Below, in pieces: positions 1,274-64,000 of a stretch of DNA of 64,000 nt. Made by a program: the position numbers and the translations under genes. Position 1 is the stretch's first letter; each line of letters begins with the position of its first letter. Location: contig NC_080569.1 of assembly GCF_030253575.1 (NCBI RefSeq), positions 4,589,501-4,653,500 of the forward strand, read 5' to 3'. This DNA is from Rhododendron vialii. Its lineage: Eukaryota; Streptophyta; Magnoliopsida; Ericales; Ericaceae. Below the pieces are notes generated by a model. The model did not search any database. It worked only from the letters and a program-made list of their open reading frames with translations, and had not been told where the DNA came from.

Positions 1274-4200
1274 TTGTCCATAAACAACCTCATTTAGATC
1301 ACTCAATGATGGCGTCCTCTCCAATAAGCGTGCCTGCATCAAATAAACACACTTTAGGGCAATGCAATCTTAGTAGTAGATGGATTACTTTCTAAGTTAG
1401 ACGTATATCATATAACACTTTTTTTTTATTGCAAATATGAAATATAGATGAAAAGTTCAAACAAATACAAGAACATAGCATCGGAAATACCCAATGCACG
1501 TCATATTTCTCCATTTCGCGGATTAAACATGAAATACAAGTCATAGAAGAGAATACGCGAATTATAAATTACCAGGAAAGATGATATCTTTACATTCATG
1601 ATATTCCAAGAAATTATGACAGGAATTGGGTATGAACCAAATAGTTCTGTGTCGGGATGATGGCCACGTATATCCTTCAGCGAACCCTTCAGATACTCAC
1701 TCTCCAGAATGGAACATTTCTATTGGATAACCTACATTAGCATGCTGAGCAATACTTGAGGTAGAATGTGGTTTACCTAAATACCTAATATTTTTCGTTT
1801 CACTCGAACTTGATATGCCCTGGTGAAAAACAAAACTATGGACTAAAATAAGTGACTTTATGCATCAATTATTGGAATCAAGCTAACAAACTGATTCGAA
1901 ACCAACTCCCTAAGCAAACACTTTGTACTAAGGAAGTACTTGAGTTGCAATCCCTTCAGTATTTTTTTAACGAACTTATTTCATTAAAAATCTAGGATAA
2001 CTAAGAATCTAATCTTGAATAAGCTAAAAAGAAAAATACGACTGAGATCAATTGTTAGGCAGAATTAATAGTACCACATATGGACATATCTTCCAAATAA
2101 TAAGTGGTGCAATCACCAAAAATTATGGATTTGTTGAGTAACCAGGATATAATGTAAAGCAAAATTTTGAAGCATCTGATAAGTGATAACAATTACCGTA
2201 TCTTGAAACACTAATATGTCCCTCTTGACATAGACCAGGCTTAAAATAACTTTGTAAAAATTGTGCATTGTGTCATAGAAGTACCTCAGAATAAGTGCTG
2301 AATCAAGATAACGTAAAGTTAGAGAGACTATAATAGAAGATAAGAAATTGGCAATACCACACCTTCACACCCCCAGGAAAGCAGAATGCTGCTAAATCCT
2401 TTGGACGGACAGCCAACCTCTTCCCCGGAGGATACTTGAAAAGTATCTGAAGGATAGAAGAAAGAATATAACTAATGTCAATGACCCACGGAAAACAATT
2501 ATGCTGAATTGGTTCATAAAAATGCAGATTCCAGCTAATTTGGGTATCTATCCCTGCAGTTAACTCAATGAAAATAACAGAACTATACTTCTAAGCCTAA
2601 GCTATCATTTCCTGCTACAATACCAATTGCTGAAGAAGAAATATAAACTTACCTTTCTGCTACAAGAATGAAATGAATGGAAAACACAATGTGGCACAGT
2701 TATGTAAAAGATCAATCCATACAACATTCAGTCAAGCAGTCAACCTGAGGTTCCATTGTGGAAAATGAAGCCCCCCGATGCTGCAGCTGTTCGAGATCTG
2801 TCATTTCATATTGTTTCATGTCCAACTCCCATTTTTTTCTTTTGGCGAATGCATCCTCGACAATTTCCAGATTCGCATCTGGATGAATACCCACAATGAT
2901 GAAGTGTTCAAAAAGCGAAGTGGGCTCCTTGTACTTTTCCTGGTCCTACATGGCATCAACATTTGAGTGACTTTGGAGGAATATAAGACCCATTAACCAA
3001 TGAGTAGATAAGCACCCTCTATAAGAAGACAGCAACTATTATACAGCAATGGAGAATATAATTACAAAATACGTAAGAATCAAATCAGTACAAAAACTCC
3101 AATCTGAGTGCCAGCTGCATCATGTACCATTTACAACTATGAGTTCGTCCTTATTTTCTCCACAACATAACTAGTAGTAGCTAATTCTAAGACATCCTAG
3201 AGGCAAATCTAAACTAACAATAAAAAAATCTAAGAAATTGTTTATATTCATGATCCTTTAACCACAACAAAATAAGTAGGTTCGAAGCCAACAATTAGCT
3301 AGCAAGTTCAAAGAACAAAAAAGAGTTGATCCAATTTTTGCACTTGTATCTAAACCTGTACCCTAACCTGATGGGTATTGGGAATCAAAATGTGCGGCAA
3401 AAAATAAGAATTGAGGCATATTGTATTCTGGACCTTTTCATTTCACCGCTGAGTTTTTTTTGCTGACAGTCCACTTCCCCTATATCCTACAAAACCCTCT
3501 TTGCCATTCTTAATACAACTAGCCATCTCACACCACACCATTAGTTTCATATAAGTTCCACCATCGGGTCTCGAAGTTTTTGGTTTCCTTTATTCTCTCT
3601 TTTCTATCTCTTAACCTATGCTGCATATACATTTGCAATGCTTGCATGTTCATCTGTCAACCATCCTAGTAAGCAAGATATAATTAGCTTGACTACATCA
3701 ACCTTCTGTACGTCCTGAAGTATTCATCTCTCCCTTGTGAACATGTGTTCACTTTACACCATTGCAAACTCTGTCAGACCTCCATTGTTTCTCCCTACAA
3801 TCTGAAACCCTCATGAAACTTCTCATACCCTCCACTACCTTTCTCTACATGATTATTCACTTTGCTTTCCACTAAATTTGTCAGAGGTTGTTATCCCTAG
3901 TCGGCTAGTCCTAATTCATTCATATCCTCTCTAAACATTTTCATTTAACATTTTCGTCCTCTCTTCTCTAGCACTAACTACTATGGTGATTTTATCTCCT
4001 CTTCTTTAGGCCTTCTAAACTTCTTCTATAATTATAGCTGTGATTATCCTATCTCTCGTCATATGTTTCTCTTCCTATAAACCAGAGTTTATATCCTATA
4101 ATTTCCACTTCCTTGTTAGAAAAGAAAAAAAAAAAAGAGCAAACAACCTATAATATCCTCAAACACTTTATCTACTGAAGCATGCAGTTAACTATAAATA

Positions 4201-4996
4201 CCCTTATGCATTGAGTTCCTGAATCCTGCTTATCCTAATCTCCCGGACAAAAATCTTCACTTTCACGGATTCACCAAAACAGAAACCCTCACCTACTTCT
4301 CACTGCACCTGAGCACCAATAAGATCCACCCTTTGGGTGGCACTACACCAGAAAACGTACAGAAGTTGACGCCATTAGCATTAACTACTCGATATGGATT
4401 TCAACTTCCTTAGCTCATTTAAATGGAAAAACATTAATCTCATATGTTAAGGAGTGGAGGGAGTGGGGGAATCACTTTCCCGCTGGCACTGTGCTTAAAG
4501 ATCATAAAGGTTCTATTTGACCACATCAACATTCAACAGGCTTCACTCTCTTTGCATAAGTATGTTTTGGTATCGAATAGAACTCCTTAAAAGATTTCCA
4601 AAATGATAAAACAAGATGAAGAAAAGTATTTACCGACGCCTTGGAGTGAAGCTGATACCACTGACGTTTCTGGTTAGCCAAAACCTCAGGATTGAAAGCC
4701 AAACACCGACTCTGTTCGCGGGGATTGTTACCCCACCGCAATGCCCTCTGCATCTGAGACTTCCATCTCTGAAAGCTATTGCTACGCCTATGTTCTGCCC
4801 CCGTCAAAATCTCACTTTGACAACGCCTGTGCCCCGGCTCCGGCCCCGGTGGCTGATTGTTCAAACTACTGCCCAAGTACACACTCTGTATTGCTTCACC
4901 AGCCGCTCTAAATGCCTCCTCGGATATCTGCTGCAAAACTTGGTACGGTGATGTCGGCCATTCCTCTGTACCATCACCATCTTCTTTCGATTCCAT
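1274..4996 (-). CDS. DENN-domain protein, 5' (N-terminal) part only
   Basis: Minus-strand gene whose first four coding exons are in the window: 4996-4634 (121 codons), 2945-2745 (67), 2446-2363 (28) and 1333-1274 (20), all joined in phase 0 at GT-AG boundaries. The 236 residues contain family blocks I recognise from plant DENN (AEX-3) proteins: SEILTGAEHRRSNSFQRW in exon 1, EPTSLFEHFIIVGIHPDANL in exon 2, KYPPGKRLAVRPKDL in exon 3 and ERTPSLSDLNEVVYGQ in exon 4. DENN proteins are generally Rab guanine-nucleotide exchange factors in membrane traffic; that role is inferred from the family. The next expected exon is not found down to position 1, so the gene continues beyond the left edge. ATG 4996 is the first in-frame start before the conserved N-terminus. 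A possible 5' UTR donor lies at 5337/5336. The 1.7 kb intron 2946-4633 shows nothing I recognise. Confidence 0.88.
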
Positions 4997-15034: not shown

Positions 15035-15137
15035 ATGGCTCTATGGATGGAAAAAGGTTCAGAACCTCATACGGAAACAGAGATAGCAGACCTTGACGCC
15101 ATCGCCGCCCTCAAACAGTCCGCAGCTATCGAACTCA

Positions 15138-15229
<92 letters not shown>

Positions 15230-18200
15230 ATATATATATATATGTATGTATGTATTAATATTGGTTTGTTCTGTGTTCTTACTTCCTCTTTAGGGTTCTA
15301 AAGTTGCTTTCTTTAATGCTTAAAAAGTTAAATTAATCCTAATTGACGCGAGTGTTTTCTTCTTCTTTCTAGATGGGGGAATTAATGAGAGTGATTTTGG
15401 CCCGTCCATTATTTCAGTCAGTTTTTTACTTGTAGAATGGAAAATAAAAGCAAGAGGAAGTAATTTATTTTCCACTATTTGCATTAGCATGAATTAAGCT
15501 GTTGTTGCTTAAAATGGGTAAGTCTATATTGATGAATTCGGAAGGAGCCTATTCCTAGCATTCCTATTTTCTTGAGTACTGTATTAGAAAGAAAATTTCA
15601 TGGTTCAATTATAAACTTGTGTCTTTGTCGCGTTGATTTCTTTTGGCTTGATATGGTGGCTTTTAGTGGATTAATTGTGAGAGAAGAAGTATACAAATTT
15701 TTTGGCAAATGACTTTTGCACATGTTGAAGATCTTCAATGGCTATATCTTCTCCGACGAGATCGAAATTGCTACCAGTTGCGGGAAGATTACTTATGATC
15801 AACAAAGCCACAATTACGCAAATTTTCCCTTCAAGAACCAATGTTGTTCTTTCATACGTTTGCCACTGTTTTTCATCTCGGCTTTATTTGTGCTTTTGTG
15901 CATTCATTTACACTATAAACGTATTTTACAGCATGATCCATTTTGCTTAGATACATGTCACGGTTCACATATGAAGGCCATTTCTGTTTAGTTATCTATC
16001 TCATCTTCCAATCATAGCTTGTGGGAACTCAAGAAAATGTTGTAAGCATCGATTAGAAAAACTCAGCTATGGAAAGCTTCTCCAGAACTAACTATGCTGC
16101 CTTACCGTAATAGTGATTTGAGTACATTATCTAACTTACTATGGAGATAGTATAATTTCATCCAACCTTTTGCAGTGTCACAATCGCATTTGGTGGGTTT
16201 CATTATTCCTTCATTGTCCGTGCAGGAAAAGGGCAATGAATATGTCAAGATGGGCAAGAAGCACTATTCCGATGCTATTGATTGTTACACCAGGGCCATA
16301 AATCAAAAGGTTTTAAGTGATTCTGAGAACTCAGTCCTCTTTGCAAACAGAGCTCATGTTAACCTACTGCTGGGGAATTATAGACGTGCTCTAACGGATG
16401 CCAAGGAGGCAATTAACCTCTGTCCAACAAATATTAAGGTTTTGTACCTTCATACATGTGTTGTTAAACTACTGTTGTTTGATTTGCACAAGAAGATCAT
16501 CCGTGTTCACTTGCATACTCTTTCAGCAGTTCTGTTATAAACCGTTAACATTTTGGTCAGGCACTGTACAGAGCTGTCAAAGCATCATTATCTCTGAATC
16601 TCTTGTCCGAAGCGAAACAATATTGTGAGAAAGGACTTCAACAGTCCCCAGAGAATGAGGAATTAAGGAAGCTTGCCAGACAAATCGATTTACGAAAGTC
16701 GGACTGTGAACGCCATGAATCTCAAATTTCCAAGGCTGTGGCAGCGGCTGAGGTATGATGGTGTACAATAGCGTGCCAGAAAATATTGATATTTTGGAGG
16801 CTTACGTTGTCCCGTTGGATCATGCAGGGTATTGTTTCTGCTATCGAAGAGAGAAATCTGAAAATTGGGAAGGCTAGTTTTCAAGAACTTACTGGATCGA
16901 AAAAGCCCATATTAGATGAAGATAACATTCTTCACTGGCCTGTTGTTCTTCTTTATGCAGAAGTTATGACTAGTGACATTATTGAGGACTTCTGTGAGAC
17001 TGACATGTTTTCAGCTCATCTGGATATGATATCCTCAGATATATATGTGTATTATTTGTCCATGGATGTGTTTGTGTGGTGTTTTCATGGATTTGTTTCT
17101 TGGAATGTTCTTTAACGAATTGATTTGAAATAAAATGTTTGTGGATCATTTGTCTTACCCTTGAGATGCTATGCCCTTTGGCCAATAACTTATATATGCT
17201 CTGTGAGGTCCTTAGCTTCCAAACATGTTTTCAGAAAGTTGTCCACCATTGCCTTGGGATAAAGAAAAAGCTTATTCTCGAGATGCTGTTGAACTTTATT
17301 ATGAGGTGAGCGGTGGGCCATCTTGTTTTTTGTTTTATTTTACAGTTCTTATTGCCTTGAGTCAGTGATATACTACCAAAACAAGGTATGGTCAATCGAG
17401 CTTAGCTTCAAATGCCAATGTTATTGTCCATTTCAAAATATTTTTGCAATCTAATGCATGAATTCCATAGTGAAGATTTCTTTATTTAAGCACCTTAGCT
17501 CGTTATTCCAAACATAGGTATCGAAGTTTTTATTTTCATGCCCGTCTGATGAATTGCGGGACATGTCGTGAATTATAGCAGGTTAATCTCTGTAGGCTAG
17601 GAATTCAAGTTACCTGAACTTGCTTATCAGAAATCACATTAAGCTTAATTTGTGATTCATAATATTGGCCAAAGCAATAGCTGATGGTAACTCCTTTTGT
17701 AGACCAGTTCGTTTAAAGGTATTACATGCTCGCATCCTTGTATCTTTAAACTTGCTTACTGCATATTAGTTTACAGCAGAGCAGTCTCTTTCCAACATAA
17801 GGGATTCTCTAGAGTTTTAAACATGACTCGAGTTTGACTGTGTGCTCACTAGTTTTCTTGGTCTTTGAAATGATATACTTATTAGTTCTCCACTAAACTA
17901 CTGCAATTCATAGATTCCATCTTTTCAATACTCCTCTTCCAATTTTATGAACCCCTCTTCACTAGGTTGGTTCTGGTGTTGGCTTATCAAGGAAGGAAAT
18001 TCTTCGGTACCTCTTAGAGGGGACTGCTGGTTCACATAGTGAAAGCTTTGGGGACGATGAGAAACATGCGGGTGATAGTTTAAATCATGGAAACTCTACA
18101 GGTAGTTTGCCAAATTTCTGAACATAATTTCAGCTTCCAAAAAACATTTGCAAGAATTATACATCAGCGTTTAGTGTAGTTCTCCAATATGCATATGGTA

Positions 18201-18960
18201 TACTCCAAAATTTTCAGTAGAGTGACTTGTCAGAATGAATATAGAAGTTTTGATCTATGCTCTCTCTCTCTCACACACACACAAACACACACACATGCAC
18301 TCACTCACACACACGCACAGACTCCATCAGTACTTTCTGCAAAGGACATTGTTGTAGGACAGGGCAATTAGTTGTGATATTACATGTGATCTCTTTTTAA
18401 GCGCACACAATTTCGTATGGATTAGGTCGTTGGTCCATGGGAAAGCTAGGAGATGATTAGGTTATCCTAAGTACTTGAGGACCATGCATAGTTTCTCTTG
18501 TCTTGGAATTAGTTCAAAGATACCCATGTGTGAGAAACTTAGAATACTCAACTCTGAAATCTGTATCGTGCAGCATTTTTCTTGTGCATATGAAACTTAG
18601 AAGATTGTATTTGCTTTCTTTTATTTGGCATTTTAAGTGGCTACAGACCTCAATTGTATCAACTTCAATTGATTTTTCCTCAGGGAGGAGTCCTAAATGG
18701 GTCAAAGTAAATGAAATGAGCACTCTGTATAGCATCTTGAAAGAACCAGATATCGTTATCCCTGGAATCCCAGGTATGCCATAGTTCCATAATAAGTCAA
18801 CACGGTTCCCTTTACAATCTTAGACCCTGGTGTTTTGTTTAATTGAGAGTTCTTATTTTATCATCTCTTTGGTGCAGTTTTCTTTATCGTATCAAGGAGC
18901 TCCAGCTTTTATAAAGATTTCAGAACCGGGAAGTGGGCTCCCCCATGGCTTCATGACTGA
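15035..18960 (+). CDS. TTC4: TTC4/CNS1-type TPR co-chaperone
   Basis: Eight exons: 15035-15139, 16226-16438, 16561-16752, 16828-17028, 17225-17305, 17966-18101, 18684-18773 and 18878-18960, summing to 366 codons plus stop. Exons 2 and 3 encode the TPR region (EKGNEYVKMGKKHYSDAIDC, FANRAHVNLLLGNYRRALTD, ALYRAVKASLSL). Exons 4-5 carry LTGSKKPILDEDNILHWP, FCETDMFSAHLDM and CPPLPWDK, and exons 7-8 the C-terminal TLYSILKEPDIVIP and GKWAPPW region. This is the plan of Cns1/TTC4, an adaptor that binds Hsp90/Hsp70 C-termini; the plant role is inferred from the family. Seven of the eight joins fit GT-AG; intron 4 (17029-17224) does not and is AT-AC. Intron 1 opens directly into a TC/TA microsatellite. 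The length fits the plant family (about 360 aa). Confidence 0.93.
15141..15253 (+). repeat. Compound TC/TA microsatellite
   Basis: (TC)25 at 15141-15190 runs into a TA array with TATG interruptions to about 15253. It begins two bases into intron 1 of TTC4, so the donor reads AAG followed by GTCTCTCT. Confidence 0.95.
17029..17224 (+). other. U12-type AT-AC intron (intron 4 of TTC4)
   Basis: The intron starts ATATCCTC at 17029, matching the minor-spliceosome 5' consensus ATATCCTT except at the last base. It ends AC at 17223-17224. TCCTTAGC at 17209-17216 matches the U12 branch-point consensus TCCTTAAC, with the branch A near 17214, about 10 nt from the 3' end. Splicing here joins HLDM to MFSESCPPLPWDK in phase, reproducing the family sequence. 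The nearby GT-AG alternative (donor GTGTAT near 17046, acceptor TTTTCAG at 17228-17234) shifts the frame and destroys PPLPWDK. Confidence 0.88.
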
Positions 18961-19926: not shown

Positions 19927-22900
19927 TCAACATATCTTGAGATCATCAGACATAGCAGAAGGTATGTTGTGCATTTTGAGAATATCTGGAGTTCGAGCTT
20001 TGGCACTAGCTGTATGCAACACCAACTTCTGCACAAATATGAAAAACAAAACTCAGCAACATTGAGAGAGAGAGAGAGAGAGAGATTGCTAATAATAAAG
20101 TTATGGAGAGGGACCTTCTGTTTATCAAGAATAAACTCTAGGAATTCTTCATTACAGCTCTCTACAATACTCGCAAAACTCTTTAAACTCTGAACGGGTA
20201 TACCATTAACAGCAAGAACCTACATCCAACATAATCAGTAGGAATTCTTGTTAAGTAGAGAGGCATTACAAAAGTGGTTTGTTTCTTTAGAACTTGATTC
20301 TTTATTTAGTCTATAAGATGTATATATTTCCAAACCTGAGCATTCTCCAGGTACTCCATATGATCATACCCATTACTAGTGCCACTCTTAAGCACCTGTC
20401 CAACAGTTGCAATCAAGTGGCTAGACCCAATTTCAGCTAAAAAAGGGCAAAAATACTTGGCACAAATGATAAAAATGTCAGCGGGATTGAAAATCACCTT
20501 AGATATCACTACACGCTCTTCGTACAAAGCTTGCCATATTAGCTCTTTTGAAAGATTTCTAAGAGACAGTCCATACTGGGATTCGAATCATACCATGAGG
20601 TTAATAAATTACAACCAGGGTGATAATGTTGATGAATAGTTATAGTATTCCAAATCTAAGTAAAGAGCAGACCTCAGATTGTAGATAGGAAATAGAAAGA
20701 GTTGTGAAAACAAATCCTGCAACGATGTAATGTGAAAAAGGCCTCCCACTAATGTTGGCTGGCTTGAATTGCTTGTGAGCTGTGAGTTTTAAGTTATATT
20801 TTAGTATCTCTGAATTACGGAGCACTTCTAGATCAACCGTATCTCCCGTGTACTTTTGAGTGAGAAGGTAACTGAATGGCATGCGTTGTCCCTGTGAAAA
20901 TGGAACTGGAATCGGTGGCCAAAAATAGTAGGAAACAGAGCAAGTTAGCTAGTTGACCATTTAAGACACACGAGAAGAGAAAAAAGGAGGTAAACACTAC
21001 AAGTGACTTGAACCTACAAAAGTCTCTTCCCTTTTGAATGGGAAAAATATTTACCTGTTCCATCGTTACCAATGTTAATGCCATCAATGCTGAGGATTAT
21101 GTCGTTTGGCTTTAGAATCTCATATTCGGGATAATTAGGCTTCACTTCTATAATGAGGATACCTTGCTGACCATGTCCCATCTTCAGGAACAAGCGTAAA
21201 TCAGGATATTCCATATTTTGCCATACGATGCCGAGAGTTGGGAACCCTACCATTTATGATATTAAGGGTGTGCTTAGACTATGTACTTTGTAAAGAGATC
21301 AAAATAAAGCATTGCATGGACCAAATTGAAGATTACAAAACTGAATAACATAGATGTAACCAGTATATGCTCCATTCTTGTCATAGTCTTGAAGGACGTG
21401 ATCAATAACCGATGCAGCTATGATATCACTTTCGTCTTCCTTGCAGCTCTGAAATGCCATTCCCACACATTTGCCCCTTTTATTAAAAACAGGTGAACCA
21501 GAAGTTCCGATCACTATAGCAACATCCACCTGCGCAATGGTGTTTTATATGGTTTGGTCCAACTCCAAATAACAAACACCAAAACAAAAGCCCATTAAAC
21601 ACGACCATGTTGCTACCTCAGCTCAGATATAGCCCTTAATATTTTGTCAATGCCCAATCTAAGGGGGTAAGGTATGCATCTATGTTTCTGAATGGATATT
21701 GATATAGTTTTTGAATGTGTGTAGGGGCACCTGGTAAGTGGGTAGGCTTTATGATTTTCCATATCGTTTGAAATATTTCAAATTCTAAACGCAAATGATC
21801 ACATGATGTGCATATGGATTGAACATGACCTGTCTGCAATGGGATCAAACTACAGAGTGCAGTTTTTATTTTGGATCCACCACCTATCCCACATTGGTTG
21901 TACCTACTGAAGGGTGCATTGAGGTGATCTTCTTCTTAAAAATCAAAAAATGTTGATCTGATAATGAAGGGCATGGAATCAAAACACAAATTTGGAAATC
22001 ATAGATTGTCAACAGACTGTCAAACACTACTGACTGTGTTAGGCTGTGAAGACCAATGAATTTTGTGGTCCTTGTCCGGACCACTGTGAATATGATTGAA
22101 GAATGGGAGAGATTCTGGAAATCTGGTCCGGACCACAGTGACGCTTGTCTCGACCACGGTGGAGCTGGTCTGGACCACCGGGCACGCGGAATTATGCAAG
22201 ATGCACGTTTGCTAGTTTGCTTACTATAAAAGCAAAGCTAGGGCTGCCTCCTATTGTAATGTTGTTCAACTTTTCATCAAAGTGAAACCCCAAGCATCCC
22301 GTGGAGTACGATTAGGCAAATTTCTTAAGTCGGAACCACGTATATCGTGTCTCGTCTTTTGATTGCTTGTTTCTTTTGCTTGTGTGTTTTGTTCTCTTGC
22401 CCTAACAGACTGGCTGTTTTTTGCTTGGACAAATGTGTTTAGATGAGGTGGTTAAAAATGTCCGATTCGATCTGGTTTTGGGACACATATGGCCTTCTTG
22501 GAACTTGAACTTTCGAGATGAACGATTCAGAACATCAACATGAGACTGGTAGAGAGCCGATAATCAAATAATGTAATGTACTTAGAAAAACCCAAAAGCA
22601 GACAATCCATGTACTATAAACTTTTCCTTGTTACCTGTACACCTAGGAGTTCGGCTAGGCACAATGAACTCTTTGTCATGCTCACTTTAGACACACTAGT
22701 TGTAATCATAGAAAATTTTCCATCGGGGTAGCCCATAATTGTCAATTTCTCTTCAGGTGCTGGTATGTCCCCGAACTCAACTGGCACGACTCCTTCCCAA
22801 AACTTATCATCACTAACTGTTAGCATTGCTGTAGACAACATCACCCATGAAATCAATATCAAAAGTAAACAATCGTTTAATCAGCTAGCCCAATATTTGA

Positions 22901-29938: not shown

Positions 29939-32900
29939 TTTGTTTGTCAAGAATGAACTCTAGGAATTCTTCATTACAACTCTCTACAATACTCGCGAAA
30001 CTCTTTAAATTCTGAACAGGCATACCATTAACATTAAGAACCTACATCCACCAGAATCAGAAGAAACTCTTGTTAGCTAGAGAAGCAATAATAAAAAGGT
30101 CAGCTCCCTTGGAGTTCTGTTCTCTACTTAGTCTAAAATGTACATGTTTTCAAACCTGAGCATTCTCTATGTCATCCATACCATCATATCCCTCACTTGT
30201 GCCACCCTTAAGCACCTATCCAACAGTTGCAATCAAATGAAGAGATCGATTTTTAACGCAACGAGCAAAAATTTGAGGCAAATGATAAAAATATCAACGA
30301 GATAAGATCACCTTAGAAATCACCACGCGCTCTTCATGCAACGCCTGCCATATTAGCTCATTCGAAATGTTTTTCAGACCATATCCACACTAGGATTAGA
30401 ATCATAACACAAGGTTAACAAATTAAACTAGATCAATTATATTCATGAATAATCATAGTAATCTGAATCCAAGCAAAGAGCACACCTTAGACCTTAAATA
30501 CGGTATAGAAAGAGTAGTGAAAACAAATCCTGCAATGATGTAATATGGAAAAGGCCTCCCACTACTGTTGGCTGGCTTGAATTGCTTGTGAGTTGTGAGT
30601 ACTATGCTATATTCTCGTATCTCTGAATTACGGAGCACTCTTAAATCAATTGTATCTCCCGTGTACTTTTTCGTGAGAAGGTAACTGAATGGTATGCGTT
30701 GTCCCCATGTAAATGGAACTGGAAGCGGTGGCAAATAATTTTAGAAACAAAATGAACTAGCTAGTTGATCATCAAAGACACAAGAAAAGAGAAAAATATG
30801 TAAACACCACAAGTCACTTGAACCTACAATTGTATGTTCCTTGTGGATGGAAAAAATGATTTACCTGTTCCATCGTTACCAATGTTAATCCCATCAATGC
30901 TCAGGATTATATCATTTGGCTTAAGAATCTCATACTCAGGATAATTAGGCTTCACTTCTATAATGAGGACACCTTGCTGACCATGTCCCATCTTCATGAA
31001 CAATCGTAAATCGGGATTTTCCATATCTTGCCAAACAATGCCCAGACTTGGGAACCCTACCATTAATTATGTTAGTGTGTGTTTTAACACTTGTACATTA
31101 TAAAAAGTTCAAAATAAAAGATCAAATGGAGTAATACACACACGCGCGCGCGCATACATACCCGTATATACTCCATTCCGGAAATAGTCTTCAAGGAAGT
31201 GATGAATTACGGGTGCAGCTATGATATCACTTTCGTCTTCCTTGCAGCTCTGAAATGCCATTCCCACACATTTGCCACTTTTACTAAGAACAGGTGCACC
31301 AGAAACCCCATCCTCTATAGCAACATTCACCTGCGCAATGCTTTATATGGTGCACTCCAGATTACAAGGCTCTCCAAATAACTAAAACCATAACAGTATG
31401 GCTAGAAACGACATGAATGTTTTTCTATCTCAGCTCAGTTCGTTTAGCCTTGCCAATGTTCAACACAATGGATGAGGTAACTAGGTAAGTATAGTTCTAT
31501 ACACTTGTTTTCAACAAATTTGAAAGCATTCCAAAAATCTTGTTTTCCACAAATCTTGAAACAGACGCGTTGTCAAAGTGTGAGGGGCAAAGTTAATGTG
31601 GTAGATTTTATTACTTGGTGCTTCAGAGCATATCTCAGAAGTGAAGTTGATGGACAATGAATTGGAATGGCTTGTCTGGATTTGGACCAAACTGCAGAGT
31701 GCAGTTTTTATTTTTGGGCCACCATGTATCCATTGGTGATCTGGCCGTTCACCGGTACGGTGCATCAAGGAGATTGTCTTTGAAAGAAGTCAAGTGGATG
31801 TCAATAGCCATACGATTGCAACACATATCTTCGGAAAAAATAGACTGTCTCTAGACTCTGTTGACCGTCCACCTGTCTGTTACTCCCACAAATGTGTTTT
31901 GAGTCTTTTGACCGAGTGGCTAACAATATCCGACTCAATCTGTTTAGTTTGCGCATATATAGTCTTCTCAGAACCTTCAAGACGAGGGTTCAGATTGTCA
32001 ACGTAAGACTTGTAAAGAGCCCGAAGTCAAACACTGCACTTGCCAAAAGACCCTTGGCCCAACAACATAAGGGGGTGCACTTAGGTGCTAGGAGTAAGGA
32101 GTTCAACTCCTCCTCCAAGGTGCTAATCTAACTATTCTAACAATACTGACTTTCGCCAAGCAAAAAAAAAAAGTCAAACACTGCACTTCAAAAACTCAAC
32201 AGCACACAAGCCATGTACTATGACTTTCACTCTTTACCTTTACACCCAGAAGTTCGGTTTGCGACCATTGAAATTTTACCATGGTCACTCTTGACACGGA
32301 AGTCTTAGTCATAGAAAATTTTCCATTTGGGTAGCCCAAAACTGCCAACTTATCTTGGACGGCTGGCATTCCCCCGAAATCAACTGGCATGATTCCTTCC
32401 CAGAACTTATCATCATTAACTGTTAGCAGTGCTGCACACAACATCACCCACGTCAAAGCTAAATAATCTTTGTAATTACACCAACAGTTCAAAAGAATGA
32501 TGACCCTCCTATGCAGAGCAGATGCTCTCATGTGAGCCTCTGTCCCATTGTGTGAAGAAAAATGGGGCCCAACACTGTCCCTTATGATGGTCTGAGCTAT
32601 CATTTTGTAGATCTCAATGTAAAAATCAAGGATGCAAAAAACAAATTCAATTTATTGATACCGGTAACTGTCTGATCAAATCATAATCGTCTCGGGTCTC
32701 GAGATAAATGGACTCTCAAGACAAATGATTAGTTGACATGCCACTGATGTCTGATTAATCCAATTTTCCATGTCAAGACCTGAGAAATAACCAGCTCGGG
32801 TAATCAAAATGGACAGCTGTGGGCCCGATTTCTCTTCATACAAGTAGAGCATGTAAGAGGATCGCTCGAGAGGATCCATCCCTCTCATACATGCTTTTTC

Positions 32901-37288: not shown

Positions 37289-37400
37289 ATGGCTGCAGAG
37301 ACCTCAAACTCCGACTCTTCATCAAATCTCAGAATTACTGTCCAAAATAACCCTTCAGACTCCCAACTCTCTCAACTTGGTATCAAATCTTGGCCCAAGT

Positions 37401-37442
<42 letters not shown>

Positions 37443-37782
37443 ATATATATATACTGTTAATTTTCTTTACATGTTCATAACACCCATCACTAAATTCTTT
37501 TTTGTTTTGTTATTGTTGTGGGGAAAAAAACAAATATATAAAAGATGGGGTTGTTCTCCCGGGAAGTACCAGCTGAAATTCGATTCAGAGATGACGTGCT
37601 ATCTCCTGAGAGGAAAAGTGAAAGTTTACCCTAAAGGGTCTTCTCCTTCTACGGCGGCCGTGGCGGAGTTCGGCGCCGGCGATCTGGTGGTGATACCGAA
37701 GGGACTGAGTTGCACTTGGGACGTGTCGGTCGCCGTCGATAAACACTACAAATTCGACTCCTCCTCACCTCCACCTCCTTAA
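37289..37782 (+). CDS. Small RmlC-like cupin (Cupin_3/DUF861 type)
   Basis: Two exons: 37289-37398 and 37545-37782, giving 115 aa. The split Lys codon (AA plus A) restores GIKSWPKWGCSPGKYQLKFD. The single cupin barrel contains CYLLRGKVKVYPKG, FGAGDLVVIPKGLSC and TWDVSVAVDKHYKF, typical of a plant family of about 100-residue cupins of unknown biochemical function. Ser- and Pro-rich extensions lie at both ends. ATG 37289 is the first in-frame start. The intron is 146 nt: the donor GTAACTCTCT runs straight into (CT)19, and the acceptor AAAAG is preceded by an A-rich stretch (ATATATAAAAG) rather than a pyrimidine tract. A read-through open frame from 37390 is an artefact of this intron. Confidence 0.85.
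37403..37440 (+). repeat. (CT)19 microsatellite
   Basis: Starts four bases after the exon 1 end of the cupin gene. Confidence 0.95.

Positions 37783-58097: not shown

Positions 58098-64000
<5,903 letters not shown>

Follow-up and report, generated by a model that had tools for sequence, protein, structure and literature searches.

The donor consensus of U12-type introns is RTATCCTTT, and plant introns of the AT-AC subtype share an ATATCC donor and a TCCTT-type branch site near the 3' end. For Arabidopsis, 269 annotated U12 introns are collected in IAOD, and the share of U12 introns that have AT-AC ends is 26% for this species, 23% for soybean, 22% for rice and 13% for maize (PMC7367187). The statement in the original prediction for the DNA described here, that AT-AC introns are a small minority of U12 introns, is somewhat overstated for these four plants. 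Both consensus adenines of the U12 branch site are reported to be able to branch, and the optimum distance between branch point and 3' end of the intron is given as 11-13 nt (PMC3584512). Minor introns as a group avoid phase 0, which accounts for about 22% on average (PMC10639083).

Arabidopsis TPR2 (At1g04130), a protein of 360 amino acids, is a carboxylate-clamp TPR co-chaperone, of which the clamp mediates Hsp90 binding (PMC2939883). It is listed in a table as the plant equivalent of CNS1 of yeast (PMC4127529), and underlies a seed-size QTL in Arabidopsis (PMC12428041). Here we describe a gene of the same apparent family within the window (the whole stretch of 64 kb that was analysed). Judging from its sequence, the interval 17029-17224 is very probably a genuine U12-type AT-AC intron in a plant TTC4/Cns1 co-chaperone gene.

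Results

Gene model of TTC4

The predicted TTC4 gene consists of eight exons on the forward strand between 15035 and 18960 (Table 1), which together form a frame of 1101 nt for a protein of 366 amino acids (367 codons including the stop, the only one and terminal), reading MALWMEKGSE...GKWAPPWLHD. Both a TPR domain and a C-terminal Wheel domain were detected in this protein by Pfam. TPR_1 gave 41.7 bits for the whole protein, above the curated cut-off, with none of the individual stretches passing 0.001 alone, and Wheel (PF18972) gave 49.9 bits against a cut-off of 27 at residues 200-266. When compared by eye with the Arabidopsis TPR2 (AtTPR2) data printed in PMC2939883, the N-terminus, TPR motifs, length and C-terminus were found to match: the 5' cloning primer, as translated by eye, opens with codons for MALWM as does the gene in the window, and the 3' primer, after reverse-complementation, encodes AGKWTPPN, to be compared with the end GKWAPPWLHD. 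The gene model, the Pfam matches and the primer and motif comparison support the assignment of the gene to the plant TTC4/Cns1 family, as the probable AtTPR2 orthologue.

Table 1. Predicted features of the TTC4 gene and of its fourth intron (positions in the window)
Feature	Position	Strand	Basis or remarks
Exon 1	15035..15139	+	Reading frame and splice donor; start codon MALWMEKG...; AtTPR2 primer likewise MALWM
Exon 2, TPR motifs	16226..16438	+	Gene model, Pfam TPR matches; resembles printed AtTPR2 motifs (PMC2939883)
Exon 3, TPR motifs	16561..16752	+	Gene model, Pfam
Exon 4, start of Wheel domain	16828..17028	+	Phase 0; ends ...SAHLDM
Intron 4, putative U12-type AT-AC	17029..17224	+	196 nt, phase 0
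Putative U12 5' splice site ATATCCTC	17029..17036	+	Motif match to [A/G]TATCC(T)
Putative U12 branch site TCCTTAGC	17209..17216	+	Near TCCTTRAY, one mismatch
Putative 3' splice site AC	17223..17224	+	Terminal dinucleotide of intron 4
Exon 5, MFSESCPPLPWDKEKAYSRDAVELYYE	17225..17305	+	Gene model, phmmer alignment
Decoy AG (TTTTCAG)	17233..17234	+	10 nt into exon 5; 20 nt past the branch A
Exon 6	17966..18101	+	Gene model
Exon 7	18684..18773	+	Gene model
Exon 8	18878..18960	+	Ends ...FRTGKWAPPWLHD stop

Six of the seven introns are of GT-AG type, intron 4 being the exception. If intron 4 were retained, the frame would stay open for 28 intron codons, as might be expected if the locus were a pseudogene or if the interval were non-intronic and required no splicing. 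The retained frame, however, meets a stop codon at 17113-17115, inside the Wheel domain, whereas splicing of all eight exons yields a single uninterrupted frame of 367 codons with the stop; the probability that we assign to this explanation is close to nil.

Besides these features, intron 1 opens with an extended CT repeat, after which TA and TATG repeats continue to about 15255 (from 15140). The major-type donor of intron 1, AAG/GTCTCTCTCT, scored 4.3 on a rough matrix and is thus weak by score; it is also embedded in the microsatellite, since the CT repeat starts right at the intron.

Splice signals of intron 4

The boundaries of intron 4 read ATG/ATATCCTCAG...GTCCTTAGCTTCCAAAC/ATG. The predicted trio of U12 signals (donor, branch site and terminal AC) is present in full at the positions listed in Table 1. 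The second consensus adenine of the branch site is replaced by G at 17215, and A17214 is the likely branch point because only the first consensus adenine is present in TCCTTAGC. This adenine lies 10 nt upstream of the last base of the intron, in agreement with the predicted distance of about 10 nt, and this spacing is near the optimum, on its short side. Three slide-equivalent introns would generate the identical mRNA (the others with TA-CA and AT-AT ends), among which only 17029-17224 combines AT-AC ends with ATATCC. With 17028 joined to 17225, the frame is open and reads HLDM/MFSESCPPLPWDK; the AT and AC ends thus fall at the junction defined by the protein, as expected for an intron of the AT-AC subtype.

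The last 20 nt of intron 4 contain 55% pyrimidine and 25% T, compared with 55-70% pyrimidine and 30-50% T for the six GT-AG introns of the same gene. Two of these GT-AG introns have the same pyrimidine content of 55% and the remaining four 65-70%, so that pyrimidine content does not separate the two classes here. A missing pyrimidine tract was for this reason dropped as an argument for the U12 type.

Protein test of the junction

The fragment starting from exon 4 was compared with PDB sequences by phmmer. Residues 28-99 of the query matched TTC4 of the solved structure 6hfo_A with an E-value of 2.5e-9, the sole PDB sequence matched at E-values up to 1. The alignment is ungapped across the junction, where ...fsahldMMFSE... 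is aligned with ...fidhlmVMFGE... of 6hfo_A (HLDM/MFSE corresponding to HLMVMFGE). The protein of the window differs from 6hfo_A in three unmatched extra residues, which fall in a loop just past the junction (SCPPLPWD).

Among the eight splice products compared with the Pfam Wheel model, the AT-AC product gave the highest score, 49.5 bits. The seven alternatives gave 39.8, 38.0, 37.8, 27.5, 26.2, 24.5 and 15.9 bits, of which the entry for AT-AG splicing carried an incorrect tail, the true product being shifted in frame. Five of these alternatives were GT-AG or GC-AG products, with net changes of -22, -12, +9, +12 and +16 residues, and each scored at least 9.7 bits lower than the AT-AC product.

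Alternative splice pairs

All pairs of donors within 16840-17214 and acceptors up to 17289, giving introns of about 60 nt or longer, were scanned. A total of 57 pairs were in frame and free of stop codons, including 26 GT-AG, 6 GC-AG and 25 AT-AC pairs. Only one of the 57, the AT-AC pair 17029-17224, produced HLDMMFSE, and this pair is also the only one of the 25 AT-AC pairs with an ATATCC donor. Another AT-AC pair, 17051-17246, gave a product of the right length and was rejected, as it lacks a U12 donor and does not join HLDM to MFSE. The original prediction had stated that only this splice keeps HLDM/MFSE and PPLPWDK in frame. As worded this is too strong, since PPLPWDK is kept by 22 of the 32 GT-AG and GC-AG pairs, and all three of HLDM, MFSE and PPLPWDK by five of the 32, with 9 to 29 extra residues; what stands is that 17029-17224 is unique in giving HLDMMFSE, and that none of the 32 pairs gives a protein of the correct length (net changes lie between -70 and +29 residues, and none involves fewer than 2).

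The same scan bears on the possibility of a GT-AG intron using weak nearby sites, such as 17079-17238, 16973-17234, 17047-17215 or 17068-17215, with residues gained or lost in the Wheel domain. The 32 open pairs and the frequent retention of PPLPWDK speak for such an intron, as do the AG at 17234, an acceptable U2 acceptor with a score of 5.2, and, to a lesser degree, the AG at 17215 (2.6). On the same matrices, which are rough approximations, the six other introns, all GT-AG, gave 4.3-10.0 for donors, 1.3-8.1 for acceptors and 9.8-17.5 for the sums of both, whereas the best sum for a GT-AG pair in place of intron 4 was 6.0. Given also the wrong length of every product and the losses in Wheel score of the five products (of 32) compared with the profile, we consider a GT-AG intron very unlikely. 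That the AT donor of intron 4 scores low as a U2 site is largely explained by the absence of GT.

Chance occurrence of the signals

The donor motif ATATCCTY was found seven times on the forward strand of the window and not at all on the reverse strand. Units of donor, branch site and AC, allowing for introns of up to 4 kb, were detected ten times on the forward strand and never on the reverse strand; two of the ten, 17029-17224 and 4153-4432, are shorter than 400 nt. After Markov resampling of the window (one strand), one or more units occurred in 52 of 60 resampled windows, with a mean of 2.7 per window, and units shorter than 400 nt numbered 14 in total across the 60. Since resampled windows yield such units by chance, the motif trio alone is insignificant in 64 kb. 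The weight lies in the placement: the signals stand exactly at the junction required by the protein, at which none of the GT-AG pairs scanned restores the conserved sequence.

The second short unit on the forward strand, 4153-4432, also consists of ATATCCTC, TCCTTAGC and AC, and spans 280 nt. Neither the sequence nor the list of open reading frames offered convincing flanking coding exons for a second AT-AC intron, and the unit was accordingly treated as a probable chance match.

The downstream AG and the 12-nt repeat

A major-type acceptor had also been predicted to lie inside the next exon as a decoy. The U2 score of the AG at 17234 lies within the range of the six GT-AG introns, and the acceptor is plausible to this extent, but no good in-frame donor of the major type was found as its partner. 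Combined with the U12 donor, the AG at 17234 causes a frameshift and termination after 40 codons. It could nevertheless be asked whether the U12 donor and branch site direct splicing mainly to this AG, 20 nt downstream of the branch adenine, as the choice of the 3' splice site by the U12 machinery is described as error-prone (PMC3584512). The frameshift argues against AT-AG as the main mode, as does the AC being closer than the AG to the optimal branch distance; AT-AG introns are, moreover, reported to be disfavoured and poorly spliced (PMC3584512). Use of this AG as the main 3' splice site appears extremely improbable to us, and from the same two reported properties of U12 splicing a low-level use may be possible.

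The word ACATGTTTTCAG had been predicted both just before the donor and at the acceptor. Both copies were found, the first at 17003-17014 (and not at 17004-17015 as predicted) and the second at 17223-17234, and no further exact copies were detected on either strand of the window. A direct repeat of 12 nt within the 356-nt region was reached by 29 of 2000 shuffles and is thus mildly unusual; among equally long segments of the window, 56 of 358 contained a 12-nt repeat, segments with microsatellites being counted. MFS is encoded in frame by both copies, so that constraint on the protein may have contributed to their identity. On these grounds the repeat was not taken as a footprint of how the intron arose.

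Other features of the window

Two similar stretches of open reading frame on the reverse strand, 22614-22880 and 32196-32651, share by eye the pattern KFWEG...GYP.GKFSM..TSVS.V.M; the stretch 32199-32651 gave no Pfam match. A nearby frame on the same strand, 21302-21544, showed weak Pfam matches to trypsin-like peptidases, and the three together suggest duplicated genes, or fragments of genes, for Deg-type proteases. On the forward strand, 60100-60666 and 62392-62886 encode an ALE2-type receptor-like kinase (ALE2_N, 183.5 bits, followed by a protein kinase domain, 72.8 bits), of which the N-terminal domain fits plant DNA, and the open reading frame 37351-37779 contains a cupin domain resembling EutQ (75.7 bits for Cupin_3). 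No Rfam family reached the gathering score in the window.

Discussion

The gene model, the protein test of the junction and the splice signals all back the original prediction of an AT-AC intron of U12 type at 17029-17224 in TTC4. Several points count against this assignment: the G in the branch site, the distance of 10 nt that falls short of the optimum, the rarer phase 0 and the fact that the motif trio is expected by chance. On the model of known minor splicing, U11 would recognise ATATCC at the donor, U12 would pair with TCCTTAGC and bulge A17214 as the branch point, and the first downstream AC would then serve as the 3' splice site. Removal of the intron would join HLDM to MFSE within the Wheel domain, a junction that is supported at the protein level, and transcripts left unspliced or mis-spliced in the AT-AG mode would probably be unproductive.

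In human cells, minor introns with AT-AN ends form a CENATAC-dependent subclass in which basal retention is relatively high, and autoregulation of the CENATAC mRNA by way of a minor intron is described for plants too (PMC8280824). From these properties, together with the stop codon met on retention of intron 4, it may reasonably and soundly be predicted that TTC4 expression depends on the minor spliceosome. TTC4/TPR2 would then join the genes expected to need the minor spliceosome for full expression; its orthologue in Arabidopsis controls seed size (PMC12428041).

The AC and AG at 10 and 20 nt past a single branch point could in addition form a tandem 3' splice-site switch, between the productive AT-AC form and a frameshifting AT-AG form or retention. 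We regard such a switch as unlikely; if true, it could adjust the dose of an Hsp90 co-chaperone to the condition of the minor spliceosome and thereby influence traits, for example seed size. Intron 4 itself is an unremarkable member of an established class of introns, and is of use mainly in annotation: a gene finder restricted to GT-AG introns would misannotate TTC4, with residues inserted into or deleted from the Wheel domain, or with a truncated protein.

In the literature, no paper combining TTC4 with "minor intron" was found among the papers searched, and TTC4 co-occurred with U12 in a single study of dogs. The term "U12" was absent from the main text of the papers found that name At1g04130, including PMC2939883, PMC12428041 and PMC4127529. 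The orthologous intron may well be listed already in specialist catalogues or supplementary tables. Searches for plant DNA related to a 114-aa fragment returned 7 pattern matches among viral contigs and 92 among genome contigs, and no relatives by tblastn.

Compared with typical plant AT-AC introns, intron 4 of TTC4 differs in the branch site TCCTTAGC, which lacks the second consensus adenine, and in its phase 0, which is less common. It is like the plant AT-AC introns catalogued in IAOD in its AT-AC ends, in its ATATCC donor and in its branch site of TCCTT type close to the 3' end.
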